Source of the DNA: Medakamo hakoo
Taxonomy: Eukaryota; Chlorophyta; Trebouxiophyceae; Coccomyxaceae
Direction: 5' to 3'
Assembly (NCBI GenBank): GCA_026636295.1
Contig: CP089462.1
Location: forward strand, 124,001 to 188,000
DNA length: 64,000 nt
Each line of letters opens with the position of its first letter. The first letter of the stretch is position 1. The notes below the pieces were generated by a model. That model was not told the origin of the DNA, did no database searches, and was given only the letters and a program-made list of their open reading frames with translations. The position numbers and the translations under genes were made by a program. Below are positions 1-36,583 of this stretch, one piece after another.

Positions 1-2420
1 CGGGTGGCGAAGGAGCGCGGGGCGCCACGCTGCGCGGCCGCGACGGCTGCGGCCGCGGCCGCGGCCGCAGCCGTCGCCTGGCGCGGCAGGCGGGTGAGGG
101 CGGCGCGCGTCCGCGCAGTCACCGGCTCCACCACCCGCCACTCCACGTCCCAGGAGACGGGCGACGGCCGGGTGGGGGTGGCGGCGGCAGGGCGACGCGC
201 CTCCTCTGCCGCCGGCGCGCCCAGCACGGCCGTCGCGAGCCCGGCCGCCCTGGTTGGTGCCGGGCAGCCGGCGCCGTGCCCGCCCACCAGGGCGTGCGTG
301 CTGGTGCTGTCGGCTCCAGCCGCGACGACGGCGTGGCCGTGCCAGGCCGCCCGCGTGTGAGCCGACAGGGCCTGGTGGTCGACCGCGGCAAAGGCGGCCA
401 GGCGGGTGGGGACGCGCGGCCGGCGCCCGCCGCCCTCCCCCACCGCCGCGCCCGCGTGGAAGGCGGCGTCCAAGGCCGCGGGATGGGTGGCCCCCCACGC
501 CGTGGTGGGGACGGGTGCCAGGGCAGCGACCGCGCCCGCCGGCGGCGCGAGGGTGTGAGCCGGGATGAGAGGGTGGCGGCGGCGTGCGTGGCGGACGGGC
601 GTCGGTGGTGGTGGTGGCGGGCCGCCACCGCCCCCGTCCGTCGCGCACCGCACGAGCCGGGCCGTGAAGGCCGGGCGACCGCCGCCCACAGCCAGGGCGA
701 CGGCACCGCTGGTCGTGTCCACGTCCAGGGTGATGGCCGGTGCACCGCCCAGCAGGACGGCCGACGTGAAGGCCGCGCCCGCCAGCGCCAGGCGTGGCTG
801 CGCGGAGGGCGGGTGAGGCGCTTCGAGCGAGGCCGCTCCCGCGCCCAGCCCCGCCGCCAATAGCGCCGCCGCGGGCAGCAAGGCCGACCCGCGGACGGCG
901 TGGTCGGACAGCCAGGCTAGAGCCGGGTGAGACAACGCCCGTCCAACGTCAAAGCGGGCCGTGGGCACCGCCGGAACGCTCACGGCCGCGAGCAGCGGGT
1001 GCGGCGCGCCGGCAAACCAGCAGCGCACCCGCTGGAAGGCGAGAGGAGGGGCAGGCGGCCCGCCGCCACTCCCGACGCCCACAGCCCGGAGGATGGCGTG
1101 CGCGTTGACGCCGGACATGCCAAAGGACGATGTGCAGGCCCGGGCGGTGAAGGGCGAAGCAGCGGCGGCAGCGTGAGGCAGGCCGCCCGCGCCGCGCGGC
1201 AGGTGGGCTGCCGCGCTCGCAGCGCCCGCGCCCTTTGCCGCCGCCGCCCGACTCCATTCGCCCAGGGCGGACCCGACGTGCGGGTTGAGGGTGCGCAGGT
1301 GGCGGGTGGGCGCGCCCGACCGCCCACGCACGCCCGCCGCCGCCAGCAGCAGGCCCGTCAGGCCGGCCGCGCCCTCGGTGTGGCCAAACCTGGCCTTGGT
1401 GGAAGAGAGCGGCAGGGTGGGTGGCGCAGCAGGGCCAGACCCCACCAGCGCGGCCGCCAGGGCCGCGACTTCGATGGGGTCGCCCAGCGGCGTGCCCGTG
1501 CCGTGGACGGAGGCGGCGGCCAAGAGAGGCGGCCAAGAGGAGGCCAGCGACGCGAGCGCGGCCCGGACGAGCGCGGTTTGGGCCGGGCCAGACGGCGCCG
1601 TCAGCGACGCGGACCGGCCGTCCTGGCCGACAGCGGACGCGTCTAAAAGGGCCAGGGATCCAGCCACACGATCCTCACCCGCCGGCACCAGCAGGCAGGC
1701 CGTGAACGCCTCGCCGCGGCCGTACCCGTCCGCGGCCGCGTCCCAAGTGCGGCACCGGCCGACGGGGCTCAGCGCGCCCAGCGCGCAAATCCCGGCGGTC
1801 GTCTCGGCGCGGAGCAGGGCGTTGACGCCGCCAATGACGGCGGCCGGGGTTTCGGATGCTGCCACCGCAGTCCGGCCCAGGTGCGCGGCGACCAGGGAAG
1901 AGGAACAGGCCGTGTCCGTGGACACGCACGGGCCGGACAGGCCAAACGTGAAGGAGACGCGGCCGACCAGGTAGGGTGGCCCGCTGCCGACAAAGGCGTG
2001 CGAGGGCAGAGACCCGCCGCCGCCGGCGCTGCCGCCCGCCGCCGCGTCCACGTACTCGTGGTACATGGCGCCCACGTACACGCCGGACGCGGGCGGCAGG
2101 GGCGCGCCCAGGCCGGCGACGAGCTCCAGCAGCACGCGCGCGGCCGGGTCGGTCGCGGCGCCCTCGGCCGGCGACACGCGGAAGGCGGCCGCATCCCAGC
2201 CGGCCAGCCCCGCCGTCCACGCCGCAAGGCGGGCGTAGGAAGTCAGCCTGCCCGGGACGGGCGCGGGCGAGTACACGCGCTCGTCGTCCCAGCGCGGCCA
2301 GGGCGTGGGAGATTGCAGGTCGGGGCCTGAGGCGGCGACCCACCCCGCGGCCGCGCACGCGAGCGGGCCGGGCGTGGCTGCCTCGCCCGGGTAGCGGCAG
2401 TTGGCAGACGCGATGAGGAC
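1..2420 (-). other. PKS module 9 (partial): KS - DH - start of KR region
   Basis: KS9 has STDTACSSSLVA (Cys 1907), HGTGTPLGDPIE near 1,490 and FGMSGVNAHAI near 1,110. DH9 has HAVRGSALLP near 890 and HPAALDAAFHAG near 460. From about 380 to base 1 the frame continues with Ala-rich sequence that fits the structural half of a KR. The module, and the rest of the synthase, continues past the left edge. Confidence 0.85.
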
Positions 2421-5400
2421 GGCGGCGGGTGGGAGGCGCACAGGGGCAGGCGGCAAGGAGGCGGCGGACAGTGGTGGAGGCGGGGAGCGGGGCGGGAGGG
2501 CGGTGGCGGGTGGGGGTGGAGGCGGTGGGGGTGCAGGCGCAGGCGCCGCCTCCTCCTCCACCACCACCTCTTCTCCTTCTCCTTCTTCCTTGCCCAGCCC
2601 GGCCACCAGGGCCGCCACCAGCGCCGCTCGGGTCGGGTGGTCAAATGTCAGCGTGGGCGGCAGCCCCGGCCGGCGCAGGCGGGCGGCGAGCACGTCGCGC
2701 AGCTCGACCGCGCCGAGCGAGTCCAGGCCCGCGGCCATGAGGGGGTCGTCGGGGGCGGGGAGGGGGGAGCGGCCGCCCAGGACGCGGGCGACGGCCTCGT
2801 CCACGGCGGCGGAGATGGAGGCGGTCGGGTCCTTGGCCCGGCGGGCGGGGGGCGGAGGCAGAGGCGGAGGCGGAGGCGGAGGCGGAGGCGGAGGCGGGTA
2901 GTTGGCGGCCGACCCGCGCCCGCCCTGCAGTTCGCGCAAGCCCCACGCGTCCAGCGGCAGGACAGCGGACGGGTGGGCGCCTGGGACGAGGGCCGCCACG
3001 ACGGGCGCGCCCACACCACCACCACCGCCCATCACCCGGCCCAGGGCCGCCAGTCCGGCCGCGGGCGCCAGCGGCGCCAGGCCCGCCGCCGCAAAGCGCG
3101 CGGCCACGGGCCCGCCGGCCAGGCCCGCCATCATGCCCGCCGCCCAGGGGCCCCACTGCGGCGCGGTGACGGCCAGTCCCGCAGCAGAGGCGGCCTGCGC
3201 CACCGCCACCAGCTCGGCGTTGGCGGCCGCGTACGCGGCCTGGCCGGGCGTGCCGGTCAGGCCAGAGAGGGACGCGCACAGGGAGGACGCCGACAGTGGG
3301 CCCGCGCCCGCCCCGGCGGCCGCCCACGCCCGCAGCGCGGTCGCTTTGGGCGCGGCCGCGGCGCGCAGGTGGGCGGGCGTCGTCGCCCGCACGGGCGCGT
3401 CGGCCAGCACACCGCCCGCGTGGATGAAGGTGCGCAGGCGGTGCGAGGCGGCGCGGGCGACGGCCGCTGTGCCTGCCGCGCCGGCCCGGGTCGCGGCGTC
3501 GGCGCGGAGCGAGGCGAAAGCGGTGGCCGGCGGCAGGGCGCGAGGCGGGTCGGTCGCCGACCGGGACGTGGCCAGGCAGGCCGGCGCGCCTCCAGCCTGC
3601 GCCAGGAAGGCCAGTGCCAAGGCGCCGATGCCGGACGTGCCGCCCGTGGCGAGGGCGCCGCCGTGGCAAGGTGGCGGTGGTGGACGCGCGGGGCTGGCCC
3701 GGCGGCGGAGGCGGGGCACCAGGGCCACGCCCGCGTCCGCCGCGCCCAGCTCGCTGGCTTGGCCACCTTCACGGGCGGCCACTCGCAGCAGGGCGGCCGT
3801 GGCGGCGGCGGCAAGCGCGGAAGCGGGTCGTCCCGGGCCGGAGAGGCCGCCGTCGCTGGCGGCAGCGACGCGGCGGCCGGTCGCGAGCGAGCGCAGGGCG
3901 GACGCCGGGCCGGCAGCGGACGAGCGAGAAGTGGAGGAATGCCCACCCGGCGCCGGCGCGTCCACGCACCAGTCAATGGCGAGGACGGATGCCGGGCGGC
4001 GGCGGTCGTCAGAGCCGGACGGCGGCGGCGGCGGCGGCGGGTGGGGCGGACCCGCCCGCCCGCCACCACGCCCGCCCGCCACCCGGAACTCGACGCCCGC
4101 CGCGACCGCTTTCCCGCCGCCCTCCCGCTCCAGGCTAAAGTCACCCAGCGCGCCGCCGGCCTCAGTGGACGCCAGGCGGCACGTGGCGGAAGTGCCGGTC
4201 GCGGCATGCGGGTGGTGGATGGGCGGAGGTGCGGTGAAAGCGGCGACCGCGGCCGGCACACGGACCGGGCCGGCGCTGCCGGCGTCGGCAGGCACCAAAG
4301 CCGCTGACGCTTGCATGGCGCCATCCATGGCGGCCGGGTGAGCTCGCCAGAGGGCGGCGGGCGCCCTGGAGGAGGAGGCGTCGACCGCCAAGGACGCGGT
4401 GCCGGAGGAGGAGGGTGGAGCGGGGGCGCGAGCCGCGCCCGCCCGCACCGCTCGCATGAACGGTGAGCGGGGAGTGGAGCCACCCGGCCCGGCCCGGCCC
4501 ATGCCACGGACAGGTGGCAGTGTAGTCACTGTCGCCAGGAGGTGGGTCGGGCCAGCCAGCGAAGACGTCGCGGCGACGGAGCCGTCGGCGGCGGCCACAC
4601 GCACCGAGAGGGTGGCGCCCTGGCCGAGGGCGAGCGGCGCGGGAATCGACGCCCGCACTAGAGCGGCGTCCTCTCCTTCTCCAACCGCACACACCGCCGC
4701 CGCCAGACCGGCTTCCAGCAGGCCGGTGGCGGGCAGGATGGCGGTCCCACGGACGAGGTGGTGGCGGAGGAAGGACAGGGCGGGCGTGTCCAGGCAGCCG
4801 GTGAAGGTCAGGACGGCCGGCGGCGCCACGCCCGCCGGCCCGCCCAGCAGCGGGCCCGGTCCATCCGGCGCAAACCAGGCGGGCGCCCGGCGCCAGGGTA
4901 ACGCGGGCGTGGCGTGCGCGTCGTGGGCGCCGCCGGCCGCCGCCAGCAGGGCGTGCGCGTTGGTGCCCTGGAACGCAAACGCCGACGCGCCGACGAGCGT
5001 GCCAGCTGGCACGGGCGCGGCGGCGGCGGGACCGTGCATGCGAGGCAGGTGCGTGCGCCGCCCGCCCGCACCACTGCCCAGCGTGATGGCCACGTGCGGG
5101 TTGACGGCCCGGAGGCAGGGGTGGGCGAGGCCGGCGCGCCCGCCGCGGCCGCCCAGCACGGCCGCCGCGGCGGCCAGGCCGACCGCACCCGCCGCCGGTT
5201 CTGCGTGACCGGCCCGGCTTTTCGCGGCGGTCAGGCGGAGGGGGGTGGGCGTGCCAGCCCCGCCGTGCACCGCCATGGCCGCGCCGACTTCAATGGGGTC
5301 GCCCAGTGCCGTGCCGGTGCCGTGCATTTCCAGGCCGGCGAGGGTGGGAGTGCGAGCAGACGTCGGCACAGCCGCCAGCGCTGCACGCAGCACGGCTTGT

Positions 5401-8400
5401 TGGGCGGGACCCGACGGCGCCGTCAGCGCGGCAGACCGGCCGTCCTGGTTGACGGCGGACGCGGCCAGGAGGAGGGCGGGCGGGCGGCCGCCGCCACCAC
5501 CGCCGCCCCCTGGAGCTCCAGCGGCGCAGAGGTGCAGCGCGACGCACGCCTCCGCCCGCACGTACCCGTCCGCGGCCGCGTCCAAGGCTTTGCACCGCCC
5601 GTCGGGGGACAGCATGCCCGCGGCGGCGGTGGCGGCAGACGTGGCGGCGGCCAGGGTCAGGTTGACGGCGGCGGCCAGGGCGTCGGCGCCGGGCGCCGAC
5701 CGGGCGTGCCCCGCGGCCAGGTGCGCGGCCACCAGCGCGGACGAGCAGGCCGTGTCCACCGCCGCGGCGGGCCCGCCCAGCCCAAACACAAAGGCCAGGC
5801 GGCCGGCCGCGACGGAGAAGGGGCTGCCCGTCGCGGAGTACGGGCCGACGACGCCGTTGAGGTGCGGGGCGGCCAGCGCGGAAAACTCCATCTGCTGGAT
5901 GCCGACAAACACGCCCGTCGTCGCGTGTTTGTCGGGTGGGGGCGGCGGCGGCGGCTCGGCAGCGTGGCCGGCGTGCAGCACTTCCGCCGCCGCTTCCAAC
6001 AGCAGGCGGTGTTGCGGGTCCATGAGCTCGGCTTCCGGCGCCGACAGGCCAAAGGCGGGCGCGTCAAAGGCGGACACGGCGGGCAGGAACGCGCCGAAGC
6101 GGGGCGGCAGGGGGGCGGACCGGGCCGCGATGCGGGGGGCGTCCACGTCCCAGCGCCAGGCGGGGACGGTGGTGGGCGCGTCGTCGACGGCGGCGGGGGT
6201 GGCAGGCAGGCGGGCGGCCATGGCCACGGCGAGCGGGGCGGCGGGCGGCGGCGGGCGGGGGGACGGGCCCAGGCTGCGAGGGATGGCAGAGGGAGCGGGA
6301 CCCACAGCCTCACCCTGCCCGCTCCGCCCGGCCAGCAAGCCGGCCACATGCGCGGCCAGCGCGGCCAGGGACGGGTGGTCGTACACGAGCGAGCCGGGCA
6401 GGGGGAGCCCGCCGAACGCGCGGCCGACGGCCGACGCGGCTTCGACCGCCGACAGCGAGTCGAACGCGCCGGGCGGGAAGGGCGCCGCCGGGTCGGCCGG
6501 CAGGGCGGCGCCGGCGCCGCCGGTCAGGCCGCCGTCCTTGACGATGGCGTCCAGAGCAGACCGGATGGTGGCGGTGATGGCGGCCAGGGAGGGGGCGGGC
6601 GCGGGCGGGGTGGACGCGGCGGCCGGCGCGCGCGGCGCGGGGGGCGGGCGCGCGCCCGGCCCCACCCCGCCGCCGCCCGCCAGCCCGTCCACCAGCGCCC
6701 ACCGCCCGCGCGCACTCGCCACGCTCACGAACCTGTCCGCGTCCATGGCCGCCACGACAAGGTCGGCCGCACACCCAGGCGCGGCCAAGGCGGCCGGCAG
6801 GGCGGAGGGCGGCATGGGCGCGAGGCCCAGGCGGTCGAGCGCGGCCGCGTGGCCGGCGGCCATGCCCACCCCGCCAAACGGCCCGAGCGCCGGCGCGGAG
6901 GCGTGCAGGCCGGCCTCCACCGCACGCGTCGCCATGCCCGCCATGACAGCATTGCCGGCCGCGTAGTGCCCCGCGCCCGCCTGTGACCAGGCGGCGGACG
7001 TGGAGGAGAGGAAGGTGCGGGTGGCGACGCCCGCCAGGGCCGGGTGGTGCGAGCACAGGAGCGCGCCCGCCGCCGCGACTTTGGGCCCGGCCACGCTCCA
7101 CAGGCCCGGCGCGTCCAGGTCGACCAGCGTGGTGAAGCCAGACAGCCCAGCCGCGTGGACGACGGCCGTGATGGGCGGCAGGTCTTCCCGGGCGGCGGAG
7201 AGGAAGGATGCGAGCGCGGCCGGGTCGGCCGCGTCGAGCGCGACGGGCAGCACGCGGGCGGGCGCGCCCGCCAGCGCCGCCGCCGCCGGGTCGGCCGCGT
7301 CCAGGACGCCCGACCGGGAGGCTAGGATGAGGTGGGTGTGCGTGCCGGCCCAGGCCCAGTCCAGGGCGAGGACCAGGCCCAGGCCGCGCGTGCCGCCCAG
7401 AATGAGGGCGGCCGTCGGGCCGCCGGGGTGTGGGCGGGGCGGCGGCGCGCGCGCGCGCGCGGCCGTCGGCGGGGCGGGCGTCAGCCGCAGCACGGAGGAC
7501 CGCCACGCCCCGCCTCCGCACCGGGCCAGGTCCACGCCCACTTCATCCGACGCCAGAGCCGCGGCCAAAGCCGGACCCAGACTCGGCGCGTCGGCGGAGG
7601 ACAGGTCGGCGGGCAGGGTCACGCCCGGGCCCGCGGCCGGCCGCGCCTCCCAGAACAGGGTGCGGCCCAGCGCGGTCGCGCCGCCTGCCTCGGTCCCCAG
7701 GCTGACGATGGACGCGCGCACGGGCTCACCCGACTCCGCAGACCGGGCCACAGCCCGCACCGCGTCCACGCAGCAGGCGTCGGCCAGGGACGAGGGCGAG
7801 GGCGGTGGCAGGACGAGGACGCGCGTCGGCGCCGCGCGGCGCGCCGCGACGGCCGCGACCTCGCCCGCCGGCAGCGCCGCGCACCCGCCGCTGACGCCGG
7901 CGGCGGCCGCTGCGGCTTGCAGGGCTTCAAAAATGGCGGCATTGCCCTCCACGTCGCCCGTCACGAACCAGGCCTCGCCGCTGCGGGCGGGCCGGGCGGC
8001 CGGCGGGCGGGACGCGAGCCAGCGCAGCGCGAGCGTGGCCGGCGTCGGCGGGTCGGTAGGGGAGGGCAGGCGCGTTGGGGCGGGGGCGGCGGCCACCAGG
8101 CGGGCTCCCACCAGCAGGCAGGGCGTCGGGGCGGCCAGACCGTCTGGCGTGGCGGTCAGCGCGGCAGGGGACGCGGTCACGCCGATGGCCCGGCCGCCGT
8201 GCCAGCCGGTGCGGCCGGGCGACGCGGCCGCGGACGCAAAGGCCGCGGCCGCGAGCAGTGGCCCCGCCCGGTGGCCGCCCGCCGCGGCGGACGCGGCAAT
8301 GAGCGAGGCCGCGGCCGTGATGGCCGTCGCCCGGGCCAGGCCACCACGGGCGAGGGTGGCAGGCGGCGCGGCCAGGGCGGTGGCGGCGGGCGGGCGGGAG

Positions 8401-11400
8401 GAGGGGGGCAAGCACCGGCTGACCAGGCGGTGGCGGGGTGGCGCGCGCGCGGCGCGTGGCGCAGCGACGCGACCCGCCACGCCCACGGCCGCAGACAGCA
8501 GCGCGACACTGCCACCACCCGCCACCACCACCCGCCCGTCGTCCGGGCTGAGCGTGACCGTCCAGGCCGGACCGCCGCCCCCGGACGACGGCGACACTGC
8601 GAACGCCGCGCCGGCCAGCAAGGCTGCCGCGCCGTCGGCGCCGCCACCGTCCAGCCCCGCCCGCACAGCGGCGGCCGCGACTTCCAGGGCGACAGCAGGC
8701 GCCGCACCAGCCCCGCCCGCACACAGCCACGCCGCGTCACCCGGGCGGAAGCGAGCCTCAAAGGCGAGGGAGGGCGGCGACGGGTGGGGCAGGGCGCGGG
8801 AGAGCAGGCCGCCGCAGTCGGGGGCGGGCCAAGCGCGCGAGCGCTGCCACAGGAGCGGGCGGCCCGGTGTCAAGGCACCGGGCAGCATGGGGCCCACAAT
8901 GGCGTGCGCGTTGACGCCAGACATGCCGAACGACGACGTGCCGCGCGCGGGAGACGCGCCGCCCGGCCCAGGCGGCCCAGCCGCACGGGGCGCGTGCGGC
9001 GCGCGCCGCCCCCTGGGCCACTCCCGCCCAAACGCGGCGGCCGCGTGTGGGTTCAGGGAGCGGAGGTGTGAGATGGGTGTGCGGGCCGCGGCCGCGGCGG
9101 CTTCTGCAGCCGCCAGCAACAGGCCCACCAGGCCGGCCGCGCCCTCCGTGTGGCCGACGGCCGCCTTGGACGAGGCGAGCGCGAGCGCGGCCGGGGTGGC
9201 GGCCGCCGTGTCAGGTCCGCCGTACGCCCCGCCCAGCGCCGCCACTTCGATGGGGTCGCCCAGCGGCGTGCCCGTGCCGTGCAGCGCGACGCCACCGACG
9301 GACAGTGGGCCGGCGGCCAGGGCGGGCGCGGAGCAGGCCAGGGCCGCACGGACCACGGCCGCCTGGGCGGGGCCGCTCGGCGCGGTCAGGCCGGACGACC
9401 GGCCGTCCTGGCCGACGGCGGAGCCGGCGAGGAGGGCGAGCGGGGACGGCGCGTGACGCGCGCTGGTGGACAGCGGCGCCAAGACCGCCGCGACCGCGCC
9501 CTCGCCGCGGCCATACCCGTCGCCGCCCGCGTCCAGCGTGCGGCACCGGCCCGCCGGCGACAGCGCTTGCAGCACGCAAATGGCGGCCGCCGTGGTGGGC
9601 GAGGTCAGCGCGTTGACGCCGCACACGAGCGCGGCGCCGGCTTCCCCGGCCGCCAGGGCCGCCCGGCCCAGGTGGGCGGCGACCAGTGAGGCGGAGCACG
9701 CCGTGTCGACCGCCGCGCACGGCCCGCCCAGGCCAAAGGCGTACGCCAGGCGCCCGGCCATGAACGCGCCGCCAGAGCCGGTGGCGGCTGCGGGCGACAG
9801 GCCGGCGCCCGTGCGGGCGAGCGTGTCACCGTAGTCGTGGTGCATGCAGCCGACAAAGACGCCGGGTGGAGGAGTGGCCGCGCCGCCCGCCAGGCCGGCG
9901 GGCACGACCACGCTCCCAGCTTCTTCCAGCAGCAGGCGGGCCTGTGGGTCGAGCGCCGCCGCTTCGGCGGCGCCCAGGCCGAAGACCCCCCGATCAAAGG
10001 CCGCTAAGCCGGGGAGGTGGGCCGCGAACCGGGCGTAGATGGTGCCCGGCGCTGGCGGGGCGGCGGCGGACGTGGGCGGCGGGGCGTACATCGCGTCGCC
10101 GTCCCAGCGGGCCGCGGGCGTCGGGGTGGCGGCGTCGGCCATGGCGGCCGCGACGCACGCCAGGCTGGCTGGGGGGGCGGGCGGGGTGGGGAGCGCGGCG
10201 CCGACAGGCAAGCGCCAGGAGGCGGCCAGAACGAGGGCGGAGGCTTGGCGGGGCGTGGCAGCCGGCGGCAGGGCGGCGGCGAGGAGGGGCGGAGGCTGGA
10301 GGGCGGGAGGCTGGAGGGCGGGCGGCTGGGGCGGGCTGCGCGTCGGTTGGCTGTGCACGGCCAGAGACGGCGCGACCGCCACCACCTCGTCACCGCCTCC
10401 CTCCTCCTCCTCCTCCGCCTCCTCCACCACGACCGCCGCCCGTTCCACGTCCGGCCCAGCCTTCTCTGCCAGGGCCTTGCCCAGCACAGCCGCCAGCGCG
10501 GCCGGCGTGCCCGCGTCCAGCGCCGCCGTCGCGGGCAGGTCGACGCCAAAGCGGCCCGCCAGCGCGTCGCGCAGCTCGACCGCGCCCAGGGAGTCCAGGC
10601 CCGACGCCATGAAGGGCGCGTCGGGGGTGAGGGGCGTGGTGCTGTGCAGGGCGGCGGACGTGGCGTCTAGGACGGCGGCCAGCAGGGCGGCCGGCGCGGG
10701 AGCGGCGGCCGCGGCGGGAGCAGCCGCCGCGGCTGGGCGGCTTGGGCGGCGCCGGGGTGGAGGCGGCGGCCGCCTGGTGGGGCGCGGCAGGGACGGCGGC
10801 GGTGGCGGCGCACGCCCGTCGCCCGCCTCCACCAAGCCAGTCAGCGCGGGCGGCAGCCCGGCCGCCCCCGCCGCGGCAGCCAGGCGGCCGCCGTGGAAGG
10901 GGCTGGCGACCGGGTCGGGTGGCACGCGCCCGCCGTCGACCAGGCCGCCCGCCGCGACGGCTTCCAGCACGGCCAGGCCGTGGGCGGGGCGCAGGACGCC
11001 CAGCCCTGACGCCTCAGCACGGGTCAGGACGGCAGGGCTCGACGCCGCCATGCCGGCGGCCCCTCCCCACGCGCCCCACTGGACGGCGGAGGCGGGCGCG
11101 CCCGCGCCTGCGGCCGCGCGCACGGCGCCGCCGGCCGCCGCGTTGGCGGCCGCGTACGCGGCCTGGCCGGGCGAACCGATCAGGGCGGCGACCGAGGCGA
11201 AGACGTGCACGCCACGGGCAGCGCCCGCCAGTCCCACGGCCGGCAGCAGGCGCGCCGTGGCCGCCGCTTTGGGCGCGGCCACGCGGCGCAGGGAGCCCAG
11301 CGTCGCGCGCGGCAGCAGGCCATCCTCCAGCGCCCCGCCCGCGTGCAGGGCGTCGCCCAGGCGGGCAGCCCGCACGGCGGGGACGTCACGGACTAGCCAG

Positions 11401-23400: not shown

Positions 23401-26400
23401 CCGCGCTTGGCGATTTCTGTGAAGGACCCGCCGGCGGTGAGGCAGGCCAGGGAGGCGGCCACCATGCCGGGCGAGGTCAGGGAGTTGATGACGGACGAGG
23501 CGGGGCCGCGCGCGTCGCGCGCGTCGGCGCCGGTGGGCGGCGGCACGCCGAAAAGGTCGGTAAACGCCGTGTCGCGGGAGCCGGCCGCAGCGGCAGCGCC
23601 CGCGGCCCGCACGGCCGCACGCCGGTCAGGCGAGCTGGCCGTGGCGAGGGGCGTGGCGCCGGCGGCACGCGTGACGACGTCCAGGGCGGCCAAGCCGACG
23701 CCGCCCGCGCCGGCCTGGATCAAGACGCGCGCCGACGGGGGCGGCAGGCTGCCGGCGCCGAACGCGGCGTCGAAGCAGGCCAGGACGGTGGCGTAGGCCG
23801 TGGGCAGCGTTGCGGCTTCCACGGCCGTCAGGCCAGGCGGGGCGGGCATGACCAGGTCGGCGGGCGCGTCGACGGTCGAGGCCATGCAGCCGGGCGCCAA
23901 ACCAAACACGGCGTCGCCGACGCGCAGGCGGCCGGCCGTCCCGGCGCCGACCGCCGTCACCACGCCGCACACATCCCCACCGGGCGGACCCGGGTCGGCA
24001 CCAGGGTACATGCCCAGGACATTCAGCACGTCCCGGAAGTTGAGGCCGACGGCGCGGACGGCCAGGCGAACCTTGCCGGGCGACGGCGGGCGGGCGAGGT
24101 GCGGGGCGGGCACGAGCGCGAGGTTGGTCAGCGACCCGCGCGGCCGGGCTTCCAAGCGAGTGGCAGGCGGAGGGATGGCCGCGTGCGGGCGAGGGAGCAG
24201 CGTGTGCGTGGACGTGATGCCACCGTCCAGAGAGACGCCGTACGCGTCTGTGCGCGAGGCCAGGGCCCGGGCGGACGCGAGGTCGGCGGGCGTGGCGGCG
24301 GGCGAGGCCGACACGCACGCCGCGCCGCCGCCCGCTTCGGCGGCCGCGACGCGGATGAGAGCCGCGGCGGCTGGGCCGCCCATCCCACTGGTCAAGGCAA
24401 TGGCCGGCTTGCGTCCGGCTTGCAATGCCGCCAGGACGGCGGCGGCGCCCGCGACGGACGGGCGGGCGCGGACGGCGCGGATGGTGCGGCCGGGTCCAGC
24501 GCTCGCCCGGCCGCGGCCGGTGGGTTCGGCCGCCAGGGCGACCGTGTCGTACACCATGGGCACGGGCGCCACGGCCCGTGCGTCGGGCGCACTTGACACA
24601 GGCGCAGCGCGCAAGCCGCGGACGGCCAGCGCCCCGCCCGCCGTCACGTCCAGCAGGACGGCGGCGTTCTCGGCCGGGCTGGCGACCGCGCTGGCCCAGC
24701 CGGTGGCGCCGCCCCCTCCCGCCACCGCGGCATCCAGCCCGGCGGGAATGCGCAACGGACCGCCCTCTGCCGCACCAGCCGAGGCCAGGTGCAAGGCAGC
24801 GTCGGCGACGGCTGGGTGGGCCAGGAAGCCGTCGGCGGTGGGAGGGGGCAGGAGGGACGCGATGGGGCCGGGCGGTGGGGTGGTGGTGGCAGCGGTGCGG
24901 CCGGCCACCCAGCGCGCACAGCCGCGAGGCTGATGGGCAGCAGGCGCCGTCGGTGCCGGGACCACGGGCGCCAGGCGGCCGCGGGCGGCAGGGCGGGCGC
25001 CAGCCCCAGCCACCACTTCGACCTCCCCACTCTCCACGTCCACGCGGACGAGGGCGTGGGCGGGCGGATACACGAGGGCCAGCGGCGACGCAAACGACAC
25101 GGCCGCGACAGCCACCCCGCGGCTGCTCCACTCCCACCCGGCTCCACCGGCCAGCAGACACGCCGCGCCCGCCGCCGCGGCTTCCAGCATGGCGGTCGCG
25201 GGCAGGATGGCTTTGTCGGTAACCACGTGGTCGCGCAGGAAGGCCAGGGCCGGGTGGGCGAGGCCGACCTCGAAGGCGGCTGCGTGCGGCGTTGGGCCAG
25301 CAGCGAGCGACCGGCGGGCGAGGTAGAGGCAGCGGGGCACGGGCCAGTGACTGGCGGGCGCCCAGGGGGAGGGTGGTGGGTGCGGGGCGGCCACTCCGCC
25401 ATCTCCAGGCATGACAAGCGCATGCGCATTCACGCCAGACATGCCAAACGCAGACACGCCGGCGAGCAAAGCCGGGCGGGCGGGCCCGGGCGCGCGCGGC
25501 GCGGCCGCGCCGCGCCAGTCGTCCAGCGCGGCCGCGGCGTGCGGGTTGAGGGAGCGCAGGTGGCCGATGGGGGCGGACCGGCCGGCCCGGCCGGCCACGA
25601 CCGCGCTCAACACTCCCGTCAGGCCAGCCGCCCCTTCCGTGTGGCCCACGCACGCCTTGGGCGCGGCCAGGACGAGGGGCTGAGCAGGCGCCGCGCGCCG
25701 GCCGAGCGCGGCCGCGAGCGCCGACACCTCGATGGGGTCGCCCAGGGGCGTGCCCGTGCCGTGCAGCGCGACCGAGCGCAAGTCCGACTGGTCCGCGTCA
25801 CAGCGCTCCCAGGCCGCGCGGACGACCGCCGTCTGGGCGGGCCCGGACGGTGCGGTCAGGCCGGACGCGGTGCCGGCCTGGCCGACGGCCGAGCCGGCCA
25901 GGCGGGCGAGCGGCGGCGCGGTGGGCGGCAACCCGTCCCCCCCGCCCGCCGCCCGCAGCAGCAGGACGGCCACGGCTTCACCCCGCCCGTACCCGTCCGC
26001 GGCCGCGTCCAGGGCAGCACACCGCCCGGCCGGCGACAGGGCGCCCAGCGCGCAGATGCCGGCCATGGTGCCGGGCAGCAGCATGGCGTGGACGCCGCCG
26101 ACGGCCGCGGCCGCGCACTCCCGCCCGGCCGTCAGGGCCTGGCGGGCCAGGTGCGCCGCGACCAGGGAGGACGAACAGGCGGTGTGCACGGTGGCGGCGG
26201 GGCCGGCCCAGCCCAGGGCGTGGGCCACGCGGCCGGCCAAGAAGTCCATGCCATTGCCGGTCGCGAGCGCGGGCGTGACGGGCGCGCCCCACCGCCCCGC
26301 GGCCGCGGCCACGAACTCGACGTGCATGACGCCCACGTACAGGCCCGTGGAGGTGGGGTCGATGCCCGGCGCGGCGGCCGCTGCGTCCGCCGCGTGCGTC

Positions 26401-29400
26401 AGCAGGAGGCGGCCCTGCGGGTCCATGGCCGCCGCTTCCGCCGGGCTGAGGCGGAAGGCCGGCGCGTCGAGCGAGGCCAGCAGCTCAGACGGCAGCCAGG
26501 CGGCGTGGCGGACGTACGAGCAGCCGGGCGGGGAGGGGGCGGACGTGAACAGGGGCTCGGCATCCCACCGGTCCAGCGGCGTGGCGGACACGGGGTCGGA
26601 CGGCGTGGCGGCCAGGCGGGCCAGGCCGGCCAGGCCGGCGTCGGCCGCGCCGGGGAAGGCGGCCGACGCGGCGATGACCTCGACGGACGACGGCGGCGAC
26701 GCGGAGGTGGCGGGTGCGGGGAGAGGCGCCGGCACCGGCGGCTGGGATGATGCCGGCCCGCCGCCGTCCTGGCGCCTCTCCACGTTCCGCCGCCCCGCCA
26801 CCAGCCCCGCCACGTGGTCGGCGACGCCGGCCGCGGTCGCAAAATCGTACGCCAGGGAGGCCGGCAGGGCGGGGAGGGCGAGCGCGGCCGCGAGGCCGTT
26901 GCGCAGGTCGACGGCGGCCAGGGAGTCCAGGCCGACGGACGAGAGGGGGGCGGACGGGTCGGCGGCCGCGGCGGGGAGGACGGTTGCGATGGCAGCCATG
27001 GCCGTGGCGCGGGCGGACGCAAAGGAAGAAGAGGGCGGTGCAGGCGCGGAGGACGGGGCCGGCCCAGCCACTGCACCCGCGCTCTCCTCCTCCTCTTCCG
27101 CCCGCGCAAACTCGCCGTACAGCCCGCCCGCAGCCGGCCGCACCGCATCCCACAGGAAGACGTTGCCGACTGTGAGAGGGAGGTCTCCATGCGCCCCGCT
27201 CATCACGTCCTCGCACGCCGCGATGCCGGTGGCGGGGGGCAGGGCGCCCAAGCCCGCCCGCGCGGCGCGCGCGGCAAAGCCCGCCACGCGGGTCGCCATG
27301 CCGCCGCCACCGCCCCACGCGCCCCACTGGGTGGCCGACGTCGGCGTGCCCGCGGCAGACGCAGCCACCGCCCACGCGTCCAGGGCCGCGTTGGCGGCAG
27401 CGTACGCGCCCTGGCCGCCGGACCCGGCAAAGGCGGCAAGCGAGCTCATGGAATGCCAGGCCGCGAGGGGGTGGGCGGCGGACGCGGCCGCCAGGCGCGC
27501 GCCGCCACCCGCTTTGGCGCCGCCCTCGGCCCGGATGCCGGCCAGGGTGGCGTTGGCCAAGACGGACGGGGACAGGACGGCGCTGGCGTGGATGATGGAC
27601 CGCAGGCGGGCGTGGGGGCTGCCAGCGGTACCCAGCCCCGCCGCCGCTTCGGCCCTCGACCCCGCGTCGCACCGGACGAGCGTCACGAGGGCGTGGGACG
27701 GGCGCGGCCCGCCCAGGACACGAAGGACAGCGCAGTCGTCAGGTGAGGCCCTGCCCGTCCGGCCCAGCAGGGTCAGGCGGGCGGGGGTGCGCGAGGCGTG
27801 AAGGATCCACAGGCCGAGGAGCGAGCCGACCGCGCCCGTGCCGCCGGAGATGGCGGCGCACGCCGCGACCGTGGCCGGGTCGGCTGCCGCGGGTTGACGG
27901 CCCCGCGGCGGCGCACGCAGCAGGCGGGACTCGTACGCCGCGCCCGCGCACACGGCGCCCGGCTCGGCCGCCCGCCCGGCGTCGGCGGGGGAAGCTCGGG
28001 CGGCCGCGCCCGGGGCCGTGTCCAGCGCCGTCCAGGCGCTGCCCGGTTGTTCGGCCGCCGCGACACGCAGCACGGCGGCCACGGCAGCCGCGGCCGTCAG
28101 GCGGCGCAGGCGCGGCTCACGCGCAGGCGAGACAGCCGCGCAGGTCGACGCCAGGCCGCCGGACGTGTGCAGTGCGGCCGACGCGGACGGCAGGCCAGCT
28201 GCGACGGCGGCCGCGACCGCGCGCGCCGCCGCGGCCGTGGCGGGGCCGCCGGCGGGGAGGGGAATTGACGCGGCCGGCGTGACGAGGGCATGGCGCCGCG
28301 GTCGGCGACGTTGCCCGCGCCCAGCCGGTGCCCGCACCCGCCAGTCGACGGCGTACAGGCAGTCGGACGCGAGGGGAGGGGCGGGTGGCCGGGCGAGCGC
28401 ACCCCCAACCCCCACCTCAGCTGCCGCCCGCACTTCCTTGGCCACCAGGCCCGCGACGACCGTGCCTGACGGCCCACCCAGGGTGTGCCACGTCTCCCAG
28501 TCGGGCCCGGGCACGCGCTCGCAGGACGCCCAGCCCTGGGTGAGAGCGGTCGAGGGCGGCAGGAACGCGCGCGCGCCTGCGACGACCCGGGTGGGAGGAG
28601 GCGAAGCCTCTCCGCCTCCGCCCGCCGCGGCGGGGCCCAGCTGCATGGCGGCGTCCGTGGCGGCGGGCGGGCAGGCAAAGCCGTCCCGGCCCAGGCCGGC
28701 CGGGCAGATGGAGCCGACCCAGGCGTGGGAGGGTGGGCGTGGGGCGGGGCGGGCGAGGGGGTGGCGAGCGGCGGCAGCGCTGCCGCCATCCACCCCCACC
28801 CCCACCGCCACCGCCACCGCTTTCAAGCAGGGCCTCGGGCCAGACCCCAGGCTGACTTCACCAGTCGCCAGCGACACGGTTGCTTCTAAGGTGGGTGGCG
28901 TCGGCGCGAGCAGGACGGGCGACGGCAGGGCGACGCCGGCCAAGCCCGGGCGGCTGCCCGGCGCGTCGCCGTCCGGGCCAGTGGAGAGCGCAGCGACTGC
29001 CGCGGCCGCCGCCTCCATCATGGCCGCGCCCGGAAGCAGGCCACGCCCTGCCACGACGTGGTCGGACAGGTGAGCGAGCGCAGGGACCGCCAGGACCGCC
29101 GTGAAGCGGGCGGCGGTGGGCGAGGGCGCGAGCGCAGCCGACCACAGCAGCGCTGACGGAGGCGGGGCGGGCCACGCGCGCGCGCGCGACCACGGCAGTG
29201 GAGGCGCGGCGGCGGGCCCACCCCTGCCACCGCTCACAAACAGGGCGTGCGCATTCACGCCCGACATGCCAAACGAGGACGTGCCGGTCAGAGGGGCGTC
29301 GTGTGACGGCGCCAGCCCCGCCCCACACCGCGGCACCGCCGGAGTGGACGAGCCCGCGCCCTTCCAGTCCCGCCCCAGCGCCGCGCTCACGTACGGGTTG

Positions 29401-32400
29401 AGGGCTTTGCAGTGGAGGAGGGGGGGTGCGGTGCGGGCGCGCGAGGCTGCCAGGGCTGCCAGCGCGCCGTGCACGCCGGCCGCGCCTTCCGTGTGGCCGT
29501 ACACGGCTTTGGCGGAGGTCAGTGCCACCCGCCCCCCGGGCGCGCCGCCGGCGAGCGCGTCGCCCAGGCCGCCGACTTCGATGGGGTCGCCCAGCGGCGT
29601 GCCCGTGCCGTGCAGCGCAACGGCGGTCAGGGAAGATGGAGCGGCGTGTCCGTCAGCCAGGGCTGCGCGCACGACCGCGGCCTGTGCGGGCCCGGACGGC
29701 GCCGTCAGGCCGGACGAGGTGCCGGCCTGGTTGACGGCCGACCCGGCAAGCAGGGCGAGCGGGGGCGGCGACGCGGACGCGGACGCGGCGGCGGACGCGC
29801 GCCCGCCCAAGACCATGAGGGCGACGCCCTCGCCGCGGCCGTAGCCGTCGGCGGCCGCGTCCAGGGACGCGCACCGGCCGGTCGGGGACAGGGCGCCCAG
29901 CACGGCCATGCGCGCGCCCGTGTCGGGGAGGAGGAGCAGGTTGACGCCGCCCGCCAGGGCGGCGGCCGCGTCGGCCGCGCCCAGCGCGCGGCGGGCCAGG
30001 TGGGCCGCGACCAGGGAGGAGGAGCAGGCCGTGTCCAGGCCCACGCACGGCCCGGCCAGGCCCAGCGCAAAGGACACCCGGCCGGCCATGAAGTGCAGGC
30101 CGGACCCGGTGAGGACGGCCGCCGTTTCCGGGACGCCCAGGAGGGCTTGCAGGGCAGGAAACTCCTGCCACACGCAGCCGATGAAGACGCCGACGGGGGC
30201 GTTGCCCTCCGGCCCGCCGCCGCCCACCCCAGCCGCGCTGGCCAGGGCTTCCACCGCAGTCTCTAGCAGCAGGCGCTGCTGCGGGTCCAGCGACGCCGCT
30301 TCCGCGCCGCTTTTGCCCATGCGGAAGGCCGCGGCGTCAAAGGCGGCCGGGTCGGACGGCAACAGCGCCGCAAAGCGCGGGTGGCGGGCGCGCGTGTCGG
30401 ACGGCGGGGTGGCCCGCCTCCCGCTCGCGTCCCCGACGCCCGCGTCCGCGTCCCACCGGGTGAGGGGGAGCGCGCGGACGGGGTCGGCCCCGGAGAAGAG
30501 GGCCGGCAGGGCGAGTGGGTGGGCGGTCGTCGCGCTCCACCGCCCCGGCAGGGAGGCCGCGAGGCCAGTGATGGGCGTGGGCGTGGACGCGGCCGCACCG
30601 GACGCCGCCCGCTCCAGGCGAGCTGCTAAGCCTGCACCTGCGAGTGGGAGGGGAGTGTGAGTTGGGAGGGCGGGCCTGCCCCCACCGCCAGCCGCCGCGA
30701 CGACGCCCGCGGCTAGGGCTGCAAGCGTAGGGTGGTCGAACGCGGCCGTGGCCGGCAAGTCCACACCCCACCGGCCTTCCACCCTGTTGCGCAGTTCCAC
30801 GGCGGCGATGGAGTCCAGGCCGACCGTGGAAAGCGGGGCGTCGGGCGAGGGAGGGGCGGGCAGGCCGAGGAGCGAGGCGAGGATGGCGGACAGTTCTGCT
30901 TGGACAGTCGCGGGGTTGAGGGCGGGGGAGGCTGGTGGCGGGTGAGGGGGGGCAGGCACGGCGGCGGCGGCGGTGGGCGCAGTGGCGGCAGTGGGAGCAG
31001 TGGCGGCGGCGGGCGCAGTGGCGGCGGGGACGGCCCCTCCGCCCGCGCCCGCTGCTGCCCTGGCCGCAATGAAGCGGGCGAGCGTGCGTGGGGTGGGGTG
31101 GTCAAAGACCGCGGTCGCGGGCAGGTCGACGCCAAAGTCGGCGGCCAGGCCGTCGCGGAGCTCGACGGCGGCGATGGAGTCTAAGCCCGCGGCAGTGAGC
31201 GGGGCGGCCGGGTCGATGGCGGAGGGGGATGCCGCGCCCAGCAGGCCGGCGACGAGGGCGAGGACGCGGGCCAGGACGGCTGCCTCGGTCGGGCCGGCGG
31301 TGGAGGTGGGGGGGCCTGGCTCGGCGCGCGGCGCCGGGCCGGCGCGCGCCACCGCTCCCACCTCCGCCTCCGCCTTGCCTCCCGCCCGGCGCAGTGTGAT
31401 GACGCCGTCGCTCAAGCCCGCGATCACAGCCTGGCGGGCGAGCAGGCGCGGGCGGGCGGGGACGCCGGCAGCGCCTAGCACGGTCACCCGCCGGAACCCG
31501 GCCGCCCGGAATTCGGCCGCCCACCGGCCCGCGTCCAGGATGGGGGAGCCGGGCAGCCGGCGGTGGGCGTCGACGGGCGCCCACCACCCCGCCGTTTGCC
31601 CAAAGGTCAGGGTCAGGAACAGCGTCTTCGCCGCCAGCTCGTTGGCCAGGAGCAGGCCGCCGGAGCGCAGGCACGCTTTGCACGCTGCGAGCGTGGCGCC
31701 GATGTCCGTGGTCGCGTGCAGGACGTTGGTGGCGAGCACGACGTCAAAGGAGCCGGGGACGATGCCTTGGCCCTCCAAGTCGCCTTCCACGTCCAGCGTG
31801 CGGAAGGCCGCGAACGGGTGGGACGGGCCGTAGGTGCGGCGGCCGTACGCGACGAGCGCGGGCGACAGGTCGGTGTAAGTGAAGGAGACGGGCCGGCCCT
31901 CGCTCGACGCCGCCAGGGGCGCGAGGGCGGACAGGACGGGCTCCGACGTGCCGCCGGACCCAGACCCGATTTCCAGGACGCGGAACGGTGGGAGCGGGGC
32001 GGGCGGGCCGCTGCCGCCGCCGCGCTCCCCGCCGCCGCCACAGCCCGTCGCGCGCGCAAACGCGACGACGGCCGCGGCCAGCTGCGCGTTGAACGGCGCG
32101 GAGACGAGCGGGTCTTTGTAGACGGGCTCCACCAGGTGGGGGGACCCGCCCGGGAACATGGCGTCGGCAAAGCCTGCGCGGCCGGTGATGACGGCGGGCA
32201 GGGCGGCGGCGCACGGGCCCAGGAGGCGCGCGGCCGCGGCTGTGGCCGGGTGGGCGGCCAGCGCTGCGCCCTCGGCGGAGAGAGCAGCCGCGTCGGCCGA
32301 CGGTAGGACGGCTGGAGACGACAGCCCGCCGCCAATGTCACGCACAAACAAGCCCCCGCGCATGCCCGCCTCCACCATTTCGGCCAGCAGGGCCTGGTAG

Positions 32401-35400
32401 GCCGGCGTGACGGCCGCACGCAGGGCGGCCAGGTCGACGGGAGTGGATGGCCCGGCCGCGTACGCGCCCAGTTCCGTAAACGCCCGGCCCAGCAGTGCCG
32501 TCGCCCAGGCTTCAAAGCGGACGTCCGCGTCGGCCGCGTCGGCGGGGAGGGCGTCGGCCAGAGGCAGGGTGGCCAGGGTGTCGTCAAAGGACGGGGGCGG
32601 GTCGGGGACACGCCCGGCGGGGAGGGTGGTGGTCGCAGGTGTCGCGCTCGTCGCGGGCGCGGCCGCCGCCGCCGGCGCGGCTGCGAGCGGCGCGGCCACG
32701 ACGCCCGACACGGTGCAGGCGGGCGTGCCGGGAGTGACAGCCCACGGAGAGTGCGAGCGCCCACCCCCGCCCACCATGCAGCTGGTGGAGACGGTGGAGC
32801 CGGGCGCAGCGCCGGGAGCGGCAGTTGCGGCCGCCCAGCCGGGCGACGCGCCGCCGCCGCCGCCACCACCACGCGGCGCGTACGACGCCAGGCCCGTCGA
32901 CACTAAAACCTCAGCCGCATCGGGCGCACGCAGCGCCGCAGCCGCGTGGATGCACGCATCCCCCACGGCCGGGTGCGTCCAAAAGCCAGGGGCCGGTGTG
33001 AGTGGGGCGGCGACGGACGCGGTGGTCGCGCGCGGCGGCCGCGGCGGCGCGTGTGTGAGGGCGTGGCGGCGGCGGTCGCGCAGTGGGGGCGCGGCGGCCG
33101 TCCCTCCGCTCACCGCCGCCACCACGTCTAGCCGTCCAGCAGCGTGAACAGCGTGTCCACTGGTCACGCGCACGCCACCCGTCGCCAGGTCGACCGTCAC
33201 GACGGCTGCCGCAAGAGCCTGGACGCGCAGCGGGGCGGAGAGAGACACGCCACACACCGCGAGCGGGCAGGTCGGGTCGCCCCCACCCGCCGCGCCGACC
33301 AAGGCCACGCCGGCAGCGAGCGCGGCCTCGCACAGGGCCGCAGCAGGCACAATGGCGCCAAACCGGCCGACGCCATGGTCGCCCAGCCAGGCCAGGGACG
33401 GCGTGGCCGCCAGACGCGGCAGGGTGAAAGTCGCAGTGGACGGCCCTGCGGCGCTGGCGGCCAGCAGCAGCGGGTGGGCGGACACCTGCCACCAGAACCG
33501 GCGGTGCAGCCAGGGCTGCGGGCGTGGCGGCGGCCGCGGCGGGCCAGACCCGGCCGGCAGCAGGAGCGCGTGGCCGTTGGTGCCCTGGTACGCGAACGCC
33601 GACACGCCGACGGCGGAGCCGGGCCGGGCGGCTCCGGCCGCGGCGGGCGACCGGCGGGCGGCAAAACCGCCGCCGCTGCCTACCGCGGCCGCCACGTGCG
33701 GGTTGACGGTCGTCAGGCCGGGAAACGTGTGCACGCCCACACCAGACAGGCGCGCCACGGCAGCCGCCAAGCCCACTGCCCCCGCCGCCGGCTCCGTGTG
33801 CAGCAGGCGGGCCTTGGCCGCGGTGGCGGTGAGGGGGGTGGGTGTCGTGCGCAGCACCGCGCGCGCCGCACCCACCTCGATCGGGTCGCCCAGCGGCGTG
33901 CCCGTCCCGTGCATTTCCAGGCCAATGACGGCGGCGGCAGGCAGCGACGCAGAGCCCAGGGCCGCACGCAGCACGGCTTGTTGGGCGGGGCCGGACGGCG
34001 CCGTCAGCGCACCGGACCGGCCGTCCTGGTTGACGGCCGACCCGGCGAGCAGGGCGAGCGTGGGTCCGCCGCCGTCAGTCCCGGCGGTGGTCGCCGCCAC
34101 CCACCCGGCCCGCAACAGCAGGACCACGCACGCTTCACCGCGGGCGTACCCATCCGCGACCGCGTCCAGGGTCTTGCACCGCCCGTCCTCGGCCAGCATG
34201 CCGGCCTTGGCCAGGACGGCCGGCGTCTCGGAGCGGAGGGTCAGGTTGACGCCCGCGGCCAGGGCGAGCGAGCAGGGCGTGGCCGACGAGGGGGAGGTGA
34301 AGGCACTGGCGCACAGGTGGGCGGCGACCAGGGAGGCGGAGCAGGCGGTGTCGATGGCGACGCACGGGCCCTGTGGTGGGAGATGGGGGTGGGGACGGGG
34401 TGTGAGGGCGCGTGCCGCATCCAGACCCTCCCCCGCCCCACCCACCGCCCCACCCACCCTCCCTGCCCGCCTCTCCCAGCCACACGACGCACCTTCAGCC
34501 CCAGGCAAAAGGACACCCGCCCACACGCGGCCGACAGCGTGCCGGACGTCGCGGAAAAGGCGGTCAGCCCGCCGCTCCCCGCCACGTTCAGGTAATATTC
34601 GGTGTAGGAAATGCCGACGGCGACGGCCACGTCGGGCGGTGGCTGCGCGGCGCCGAAGCCGAAGCCGCCGTCCGCGAGCGCGGACGCGCACCCTTCCAGC
34701 AACAGGCGCTGTTGGGGGTCGAGGGCGGCCGCTTCAGGCGGGGCGATGGAAAAGGCGGCGGCATCGAAAGCGGCGGCGCCGGGCAGGAAGGCGCCGAACC
34801 GTTTGGGGCGGGTGGCACGGTCGAACCAGCCGGCGTCCGCAGCCCACCTGTGGAGTGGAGTGGAGTGGGGTGAGGCAGTTAAGCAAGTGAGAGGGTGCCG
34901 CTTTGCCCGTGCGCTTCGCCGGTGCGGAGCTCTCCTCCGGCCCCCCGCCACCCCCCGCATCACGTCGCACGCACCGGCTGGGTGGGACCAGGCGCGCCGC
35001 ATCGCCCACATCCGGGCCGCCGGCCGTGGGGGAGGCGGCTTTAAAAGAGATGGCCGCGACTGCGGTGGGTTGTGTCAGTGACGCCGGCGTGTCAGTGGCC
35101 AGGGCGCGCGGGACGGCCACGGGCGGAGGTGCGGCCACGGCCCGGCTGGAGCTGGGTGTGTGCGCCCGGGCGGGCACGGGCTTGCGCGGAGCAGCAGGGG
35201 GCGCGGTGACGGCGGTGGCGCGGCGCGGCGGCGGGGGTGGGGCGTCCGACCCGGACGAGGCGGTGCCGGTGTCCTCGGTCTCACTGCCGGTCCAGGACCC
35301 GGCGTCCGAGCCGGTGTAGGATTCAGACCCGGATTCCGAGTAGGAGGAGGCGCTGGAAGAAGCAGGCGTGGAAGGGTGCGGCGAGGCGGGTGGTGCCTGT

Positions 35401-35528: not shown

Positions 35529-35690
35529 GGTGGTTGCGTGTGTGTGGGAGAGAGTGTGGTGGGCGCGTTGGCGCGGGGCAGGCGCGGGGCAGGCGCCCGT
35601 CTTAACTGAAGGAGTGCGGGTTGGTGCACGCCTCCCCGTTTGAGCGGCAGACGCACGAAAAAAAAAACACGCCGCTCGCGCGCCCTTTGA
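35529..35690. promoter_or_regulatory. Bidirectional promoter region between the PKS and ZSWIM7
   Basis: These 162 bases separate the PKS start codon (minus) from the ZSWIM7 start codon (plus). They hold a run of ten A at 35,658-35,667, 23 bases before the ZSWIM7 ATG, and GT/CA-rich sequence next to the PKS start. No TATA box is obvious. The 5' UTRs of both genes must be short or overlap here. Confidence 0.5.
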
Positions 35691-36552
35691 ATGCACGCGC
35701 CGCACCACCAGCCGACGCCCCGCCAAAGCAGCCTACCGTCGGTGACCAGGTGAGCGGATGCATGCGCTGCTCATCCCACGGTGTCTCAGCGTCGGTGAGG
35801 CCGGCCACGTGCCCGCCCCGCCCGCCGTTCTCCGACCGCCTGTCGACGCAATTCGTTTTCGTTTTTTTTTGGTTTCAGGCCACACGCCGGCAGGCCGCAC
35901 GCCGTCCGCCTCCTCACGCCCCTCCTCCAACCCTCCTCTCCAGCATCGCGGACGCCCTCTTCGCCCGCCTCGCCCTCGCGGACAGTCCGGCGGAAGGTGA
36001 GTTGGGCGGGCGGCGGCGTTTAATTTCCGCTGCCCACACTCCCGACTGCGCCCTCCACCCGCCCCCCCCTCCCGCCTCCCGTCTCCCACCCACGCTCCAG
36101 TCTCCCCGCCCGACCTGGCCGCCCTGCACACGCTCTTCGACCGCAACTTCGCCCGCGCCCTGGCGCTGGCTGAGGGCGGCGGCGTCACCGTCTTCACCGG
36201 CTCGGCCTCGGGCCGGGTCGTGTACCAAGTCCGCGCGGGCGGCGGCGGCGGCGGCGGCGCGAGCGGCCCGGGCGGACCAGCCCGCTCCGACGCGTCCGGC
36301 CACCACCGCGGCGCGCACACCACGTTCCCGGCCCACTACTGCGACTGCGACGCCTTCTACTTTGACGTCGTCCACCGCGGCGACGCGGCGGCGTGCAAGC
36401 ACCAGCTGGCCGGGAGGCTGGCGGCCTGCTTTCCGGGGAGGAGTGGTAGTGGGGGTGAGGGCGGACGCGGGCGCGGCAGCCACAGCGCCGGCCTCGCCGG
36501 CCACGTCACGCTCCCGGACGAAGTCCTCGCCCGCTTGCTGATTGCGGGCTGA
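35691..36552 (+). CDS. ZSWIM7: SWIM zinc-finger protein, ZSWIM7/SWS1-like recombination factor
   Basis: ZSWIM7 (SWS1) works with SWSAP1 or Shu-type RAD51 paralogues to support homologous recombination in the nucleus. Exons: 35691-35749, 35944-35996 and 36101-36552, giving 187 residues. Splices keep phase (AG|C gives Ser; G|TC gives Val). The last exon has FTGSASGRVVYQV followed by the SWIM pattern CxC...CxH in HYCDCDAFYFDV and ACKHQLAGRL, close to the human order (RRVYQV ... CSC ... CKHLLA). Two Gly-rich insertions lie around the finger. The first two exons are tiny (59 and 53 nt) and carry a likely helix (SIADALFARLALAD). The acceptor at 35,943 was preferred over the one at 35,879 because only it joins exon 1 in frame to a Met. 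Homology is secure; the first exon is inferred. Confidence 0.82.
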
Positions 36553-36583
36553 GACCTGCAGGCAGCTGACAAGAAGCACAAGC

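Follow-up and report, generated by a model that had tools for sequence, protein, structure and literature searches.

Giant modular PKSs without acyltransferase (AT) domains predominate in chlorophytes (Shelest et al. 2015, PMC4661987). According to the available portions of that survey, 15 of the 32 algal species have type I PKSs, most sequenced chlorophytes are predicted to have PKS proteins in the MDa range, and almost all of the multimodular algal PKSs, about 30 in number, depend on a trans-acting AT; the chlorophyte KS clade is its clade 9, and chlorophyte representatives include Chlamydomonas CrePKS1 and Chlorella CvaPKS1, as well as PKSs of Ostreococcus and Micromonas. When the PKS gene of Chlamydomonas was disrupted, zygotes did not develop correctly, and the PKS product has been suggested as a constituent of the wall (PMC7073580, available sections).

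The PKS gene described here, at one end of the 64,000-nt stretch of DNA analyzed (the window), can be likened to these by their published descriptions. It shares with them its MDa size, many KSs in one protein (nine visible here, up to 14 in theirs; PMC4661987), the lack of AT domains, KSs falling outside the bacterial clades, and signs of module duplication. It was singled out in the first-pass annotation as the window's best candidate for an undescribed system, a claim overtaken by the systems already reported (PMC4661987, in part): because the AT-less giant layout is known from green algae, the PKS is not new in kind. There are differences in detail, as far as the accessible text of the two sources goes: the conserved chlorophyte/Chlamydomonas megasynthase begins with an adenylation domain (PMC7073580), whereas here KS1 comes first; and methyltransferase domains are reportedly absent from most algal trans-AT PKSs, with one in CsuPKS1 (PMC4661987), while module 1 of this PKS has one. 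Haptophyte PKSs are likewise giant modular algal type I enzymes with one malonyl source for all modules, but have a single N-terminal “semi-trans” AT (PMC7073580, in part), and the N-terminus here has none. Bacterial trans-AT PKSs resemble this one in their AT-less modules, C-methyltransferases and tandem ACPs, and apparently in a KS type matched to the module before it. The points of interest distinctive of this PKS are its N-terminal KS, the methyltransferase of module 1, the failure to detect a flanking subdomain after the KSs, and the pairing of KS type with upstream module.

The gene runs from an ATG at 35528, in an ACCATGG context, to the left window edge, which cuts it, so that only its 5′ part is seen; this start coincides with the upper limit first assigned to the feature. 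The open minus-strand ORF at 3..34733 (11,577 codons) continues past the edge. Removal of two short GT-AG introns gives a continuous KS1 frame and an uninterrupted reading of at least 11,759 residues, from exons 35528-34975, 34847-34493 and 34370-3, the last of which is 11,456 codons long and still open.

3..35528, minus strand: AT-less giant modular type I PKS gene, 5′ part (ATG, 3 exons, 11,759 residues)
34848..34974, minus strand: intron 1 (GT-AG); KS1 frame restored on splicing
34371..34492, minus strand: intron 2 (GT-AG), immediately 5′ of the exon bearing the KS1 active-site Cys

The domains had been described as lying in a single frame. This is correct for KS2 to KS9 and the end of KS1, but not for the rest of KS1, since introns 34974-34848 and 34492-34371 split that domain over three exons. 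The protein begins with ~150 low-complexity residues, followed by KS1 as the first domain. Upstream of the gene, the coding score is mostly on the opposite strand (35.8-37.3 kb), and the seven minus-strand ORFs that lie within 34734-38018 have no Pfam match; thus neither an adenylation nor an AT domain can be seen in that region.

Nine KS domains, DH, KR, ER and C-methyltransferase domains, and nine ACPs had been listed from the sequence, and both motif searches and Pfam, run on nine module pieces, bear this out. The KS active-site motifs are at ORF residues 128, 1567, 2850, 4423, 5648, 6991, 8343, 9660 and 10940, from which the KS-to-KS spacings first given (4317, 3849, 4719, 3675, 4029, 4056, 3951 and 3840 bases) are reproduced exactly. 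Module 1 has two ACP motifs and modules 2-8 one each. Pfam finds KS in all nine pieces, KR in seven and the PKS-DH family in seven (that of module 1 scoring slightly below the curated cut-off), with one zinc-type ER (module 3) and one methyltransferase (module 1). The DH assignments stand for seven modules; in modules 4 and 7 only a relic of the domain remains, lacking the catalytic His. Module order is KS-DH-cMT-ACP-ACP, KS-DH-KR-ACP and KS-DH-ER-KR-ACP for modules 1-3; KS-(DH relic)-KR-ACP, KS-DH-KR-ACP and KS-DH-KR-ACP for modules 4-6; and KS-(DH relic)-KR-ACP, KS-DH-KR-ACP and KS-DH-, open at the window edge, for modules 7-9.

33567..35057, minus: KS1, first domain, over three exons
32664..33542, minus: DH1, HxxxGxxxxP motif with one residue altered
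31464..32213, minus: C-methyltransferase, module 1 (PF08242 1.6e-13; 6cca 5e-43)
31059..31271, minus: ACP1a (Pfam, motif)
30708..30896, minus: ACP1b (Pfam, motif)
29232..30587, minus: KS2 (Pfam)
28344..29201, minus: DH2 (Pfam)
27312..27851, minus: KR2 (Pfam, catalytic residues)
26811..26996, minus: ACP2 (Pfam, motif)
25386..26693, minus: KS3 (Pfam)
24534..25370, minus: DH3 (Pfam)
23172..24080, minus: ER, module 3 (PF08240, PF13602; GAGGVG)
22530..23090, minus: KR3 (Pfam, catalytic residues)
22020..22223, minus: ACP3 (Pfam, motif)
20694..21941, minus: KS4 (Pfam)
19854..20678, minus: DH relic, module 4, without catalytic His (profile comparison)
18924..19436, minus: KR4 (Pfam, catalytic residues)
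18357..18548, minus: ACP4 (Pfam, motif)
16989..18263, minus: KS5 (Pfam)
16089..16982, minus: DH5 (Pfam)
15015..15539, minus: KR5 (Pfam, catalytic residues)
14457..14660, minus: ACP5 (Pfam, motif)
12945..14294, minus: KS6 (Pfam)
12054..12926, minus: DH6 (Pfam)
11064..11594, minus: KR6 (Pfam, catalytic residues)
10485..10667, minus: ACP6 (Pfam, motif)
8889..10250, minus: KS7 (Pfam)
8034..8876, minus: DH relic, module 7, without catalytic His (profile comparison)
6876..7409, minus: KR7 (Pfam, catalytic residues)
6345..6551, minus: ACP7 (Pfam, motif)
4932..6245, minus: KS8 (Pfam)
4044..4916, minus: DH8 (Pfam)
3141..3656, minus: KR8 (Pfam, catalytic residues)
2607..2804, minus: ACP8 (Pfam, motif)
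1080..2435, minus: KS9 (Pfam)
144..1070, minus: DH9 (Pfam); remainder of module 9 beyond the window

The methyltransferase of module 1 has as its nearest PDB entries 6cca, “DisA protein” of disorazole synthase (5e-43), psoF (1.9e-26) and CurJ (1.7e-24).

The absence of AT domains from the nine visible modules, also asserted at the outset, is upheld by each search made. No AT family was found by Pfam at E ≤ 0.01 in the nine pieces, module 9 being cut by the window, and the string G[HFQ]SxG is absent from the PKS ORF. A profile was built from 35 of 72 distinct bacterial AT stretches (half of the loci) and evaluated on the non-redundant 23 of the remaining 37, those <60% identical to the training set; all 23 were recovered, the worst at E 3e-79, and with filters off the PKS gave no match at E ≤ 10. 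An earlier, less strict profile run had the same outcome. Among window ORFs of at least 60 aa there was a single chance match (E 6.3), and no free-standing AT was found. Modules 4 and 7 have long stretches that might conceal an AT, but this idea was rejected, as these have neither G[HFQ]SxG nor a match to the AT profile. What they do contain is a weak DH relic (hhalign, 96.7% over 127 columns). A DH profile from this PKS scores the two relics at E 2.6e-9 and 1.1e-6, in a search of nine sequences and under strong composition bias, compared with 1.1e-23 to 2.2e-48 for the seven DHs, each left out in turn. The module 7 stretch has no PDB relative (best E 0.41, FliP), and AlphaFold models of it (mean pLDDT 37.0) and of KS2 with eight rows (35.5) are too poor for use.

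The PKS gene is eukaryotic, as it has introns, eukaryotic neighbors and a codon usage similar to theirs. Close by are an MCM2-like gene, with its MCM P-loop domain split across two frames, and genes for a USP-type hydrolase, an E1 of the ubiquitin/SUMO kind, AMMECR1, CCDC124, DnaJ, a kinase and Guanylate_cyc_2. A GC content of 73-82% in 2-kb windows across the gene, a single 34-kb exon without introns, and a best PDB match of KS2 to 7zma (its E-value summing two stretches of one chain), which is presumably a bacterial PKS, might be expected of a contaminating bacterial trans-AT PKS contig or a chimera, a possibility that the first-pass annotation had itself raised. Such an origin is scarcely credible, given the introns within KS1 and the flanking genes: mean codon-usage distance from the PKS is 0.044-0.094 to six of these and 0.090-0.130 to ten high-GC bacterial loci, although the two ranges touch. 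The KSs also form a clade separate from 41 bacterial ones, and KS2 is only 35-45% identical to the best bacterial matches listed (80 loci kept). Searches for KS relatives gave none among 50 pattern matches in IMG/VR, and in plasmids 536 records, every one at <60% identity. The initial description as a eukaryotic giant modular PKS is thus supported by introns, neighbors, nine KSs and a length of at least 11,759 residues.

Because the 3′ part of the gene is beyond the window and haptophyte megasynthases have one AT each (PMC7073580, in part), a single AT farther along the same protein might load all modules in semi-trans fashion; the haptophyte AT is N-terminal, however, and with an AT-free N-terminus inside the window this arrangement is improbable. 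Two DH relics, and a module 1 that retains a DH yet has no KR, could be read as the start of decay. KR-only modules are ordinary in PKSs, though, and with 11,759 codons free of stops, the catalytic Cys and both His kept in all nine KSs, Lys, Ser, Tyr and Asn invariant in all seven KRs, and intact ACP catalytic residues, there is very little chance that the gene is a pseudogene. Most probably, the gene is nuclear and its product a non-iterative type I PKS that belongs with the AT-less (trans-AT) enzymes of algae. The host is probably an alga, as the kind of PKS suggests and, weakly, an RlmN-like gene at 42151-43633.

In bacterial trans-AT PKSs, an LPTYPFx5W motif and a flanking subdomain have been described after the KS (PMC11260071, in part). 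The motif has a counterpart here, with the exact P[WF]x5W in six of nine modules and variants in three (a final Ala in module 6, LW in module 7 and AF in module 9). The flanking subdomain was not detected. A profile of it, made from the stretch between KS and AT in bacterial modules taken as that subdomain, recovered 22 of 23 bacterial test stretches at E ≤ 1e-3 (the worst at 0.0089) and had no match in the nine modules. Sixteen bacterial control KSs without G[HQF]SxG include six that carry an AT by profile; of the ten AT-less ones, nine keep the subdomain at E ≤ 1e-3. From the KS-terminal NAH to an exact P[WFY]x5[WY] there are 16-17 residues in the six modules of this PKS having the motif, and with a relaxed pattern 16-19 in all nine; only the exact pattern allows a fair comparison, because the relaxed one matches bacterial sequences by chance (lowest distances 67 and 7). 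Ten exact-pattern distances were obtained from the 16 bacterial KSs: 100, 100, 100, 105, 152, 160, 363, 364, 369 and 468, of which those from 363 upward probably belong to AT carriers. In bacterial cis-AT modules the distance is 406-551 (median 449; 56 of 66). From the end of the KS to the DH His there are 61-65 residues in the seven modules with a DH. A full-text search of the open literature found no description of algal PKSs without the flanking subdomain. A KS-DH junction this short would show the minimal scaffold of an AT-less module, which is relevant to PKS engineering.

KS phylogeny helps to predict the products of bacterial trans-AT PKSs, in which the KSs of one assembly line usually scatter unless they share a substrate type (PMC7930024, available portion). 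KS1-9, by contrast, form a single clade (100/99) apart from 41 bacterial KSs hand-picked from 80 loci, the best among the matches listed; bootstrap values for this tree are unsettled, and all nine PKS rows were flagged for unusual composition. Within the clade are group A (KS1, 4, 5, and 8; 100/97) and group B (KS2, 3, 6, 7, and 9; 100/94). KS4 comes after the ER module, and KS5 and KS8 each after one of the two KR-only modules, for which a tetrahedral beta-carbon is predicted; KS3, 6, 7, and 9 follow DH-KR modules and KS2 the KR-less module 1, for which a planar one is predicted. Group and predicted upstream beta-carbon agree for all eight internal KSs, in one protein and by a rule stated post hoc. 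For a 3:5 split, such agreement has a chance of one in 56, with the groups seen before the rule was stated, and the eight cases are not independent, because of shared duplication.

KR4 and KR7 are 46.7% identical, compared with at most 32.8% to any other KR, and the KSs downstream of them, KS5 and KS8, are sisters (99/91), while KS4 and KS7 are in separate groups. Such a pattern agrees with KR, ACP and the following KS being passed on as one unit whose boundary lies behind the KS, a scheme already described in bacterial trans-AT PKSs (PMC11260071, in part). A test on distances gives weaker support: for each KR and the next KS r is 0.41 (279 of 5040 permutations), probably through the KR4/KR7 pair; for KR and KS of the same module r is -0.11 (3137 of 5040), and ACP versus next KS shows no correlation (r 0.08, a value reached in 12436 of 40320 permutations).

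Thirteen alignment columns separate the KS groups, three of them consecutive: A-[FY]-Q in group A and G-M-S in group B. Aligned by eye, these correspond to FabF residues 399-401, in the GFGG gating loop. That loop has been described, and an altered gating residue was suggested to modulate specificity (PMC7138838, in part). The state of the loop may thus be tied to substrate type in this PKS; if it does report the incoming beta-carbon, sequence alone would aid product prediction for such PKSs. As a tentative and on balance doubtful reading, a eukaryotic AT-less line may have lost both the AT and the whole KS-to-AT subdomain, leaving a linker of 16-19 residues, and independently evolved the matching of KS to upstream module known from bacterial trans-AT PKSs, by a two-state gating loop in which A[FY]QG goes with a starter or a tetrahedral beta-carbon and GMSG with a planar one. 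Loss of the whole subdomain would mean that the trans-acting AT must work without that contact surface.

By established PKS logic, nine AT-less modules call for a separate malonyl transferase. After phosphopantetheinylation, a free-standing malonyl-CoA transacylase would load malonyl on every ACP, and the starter would reach KS1 in trans, since no loading domain lies ahead of it. Each KS would add two carbons to the chain, and its module would set the beta-carbon: keto with an alpha-methyl group in module 1, alkene in modules 2, 5, 6, and 8, saturated in module 3, and hydroxyl in modules 4 and 7. The predicted product is a long, methyl-branched, hydroxylated and partly unsaturated chain, R-CO-CH(CH3)-CH=CH-CH2-CH2-CH(OH)-CH2-CH=CH-CH=CH-CH(OH)-CH2-CH=CH-..., continued by module 9 and beyond.

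Two GNAT acetyltransferase genes are near the PKS on the plus strand (37417-38394 and 43574-44656; nearest NCBIfam RimI, 1.8e-17 and 5e-7). In some bacterial PKSs the starter is loaded by a GNAT domain; nothing in the window links these two genes to the PKS. Two overlapping minus-strand frames at 42151-43633, apparently intron-split, have matches to the RlmN/Cfr family of radical-SAM rRNA methyltransferases (E-values 1.5e-45 and 9.8e-24, neither reaching the curated cut-off), a bacterial-type enzyme that is perhaps organellar. A small-molecule methyltransferase gene (Methyltransf_25/11; 60293-61591, minus strand; nearest PDB 3bus, 8.1e-32) could possibly encode a tailoring enzyme or be unrelated.

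Among the bacterial loci, L001 and L003, from a MAG labelled Acidobacteria (bin-9101; 74-76% GC), are among the best KS matches listed, and the AT-less KSs of L003 retain the flanking subdomain (9.3e-21 and 7.5e-24). L036 and L050, from MAGs labelled Klebsiella pneumoniae, contain large PKS genes of 67-73% GC that carry an AT motif; the Klebsiella label of these contigs looks wrong.
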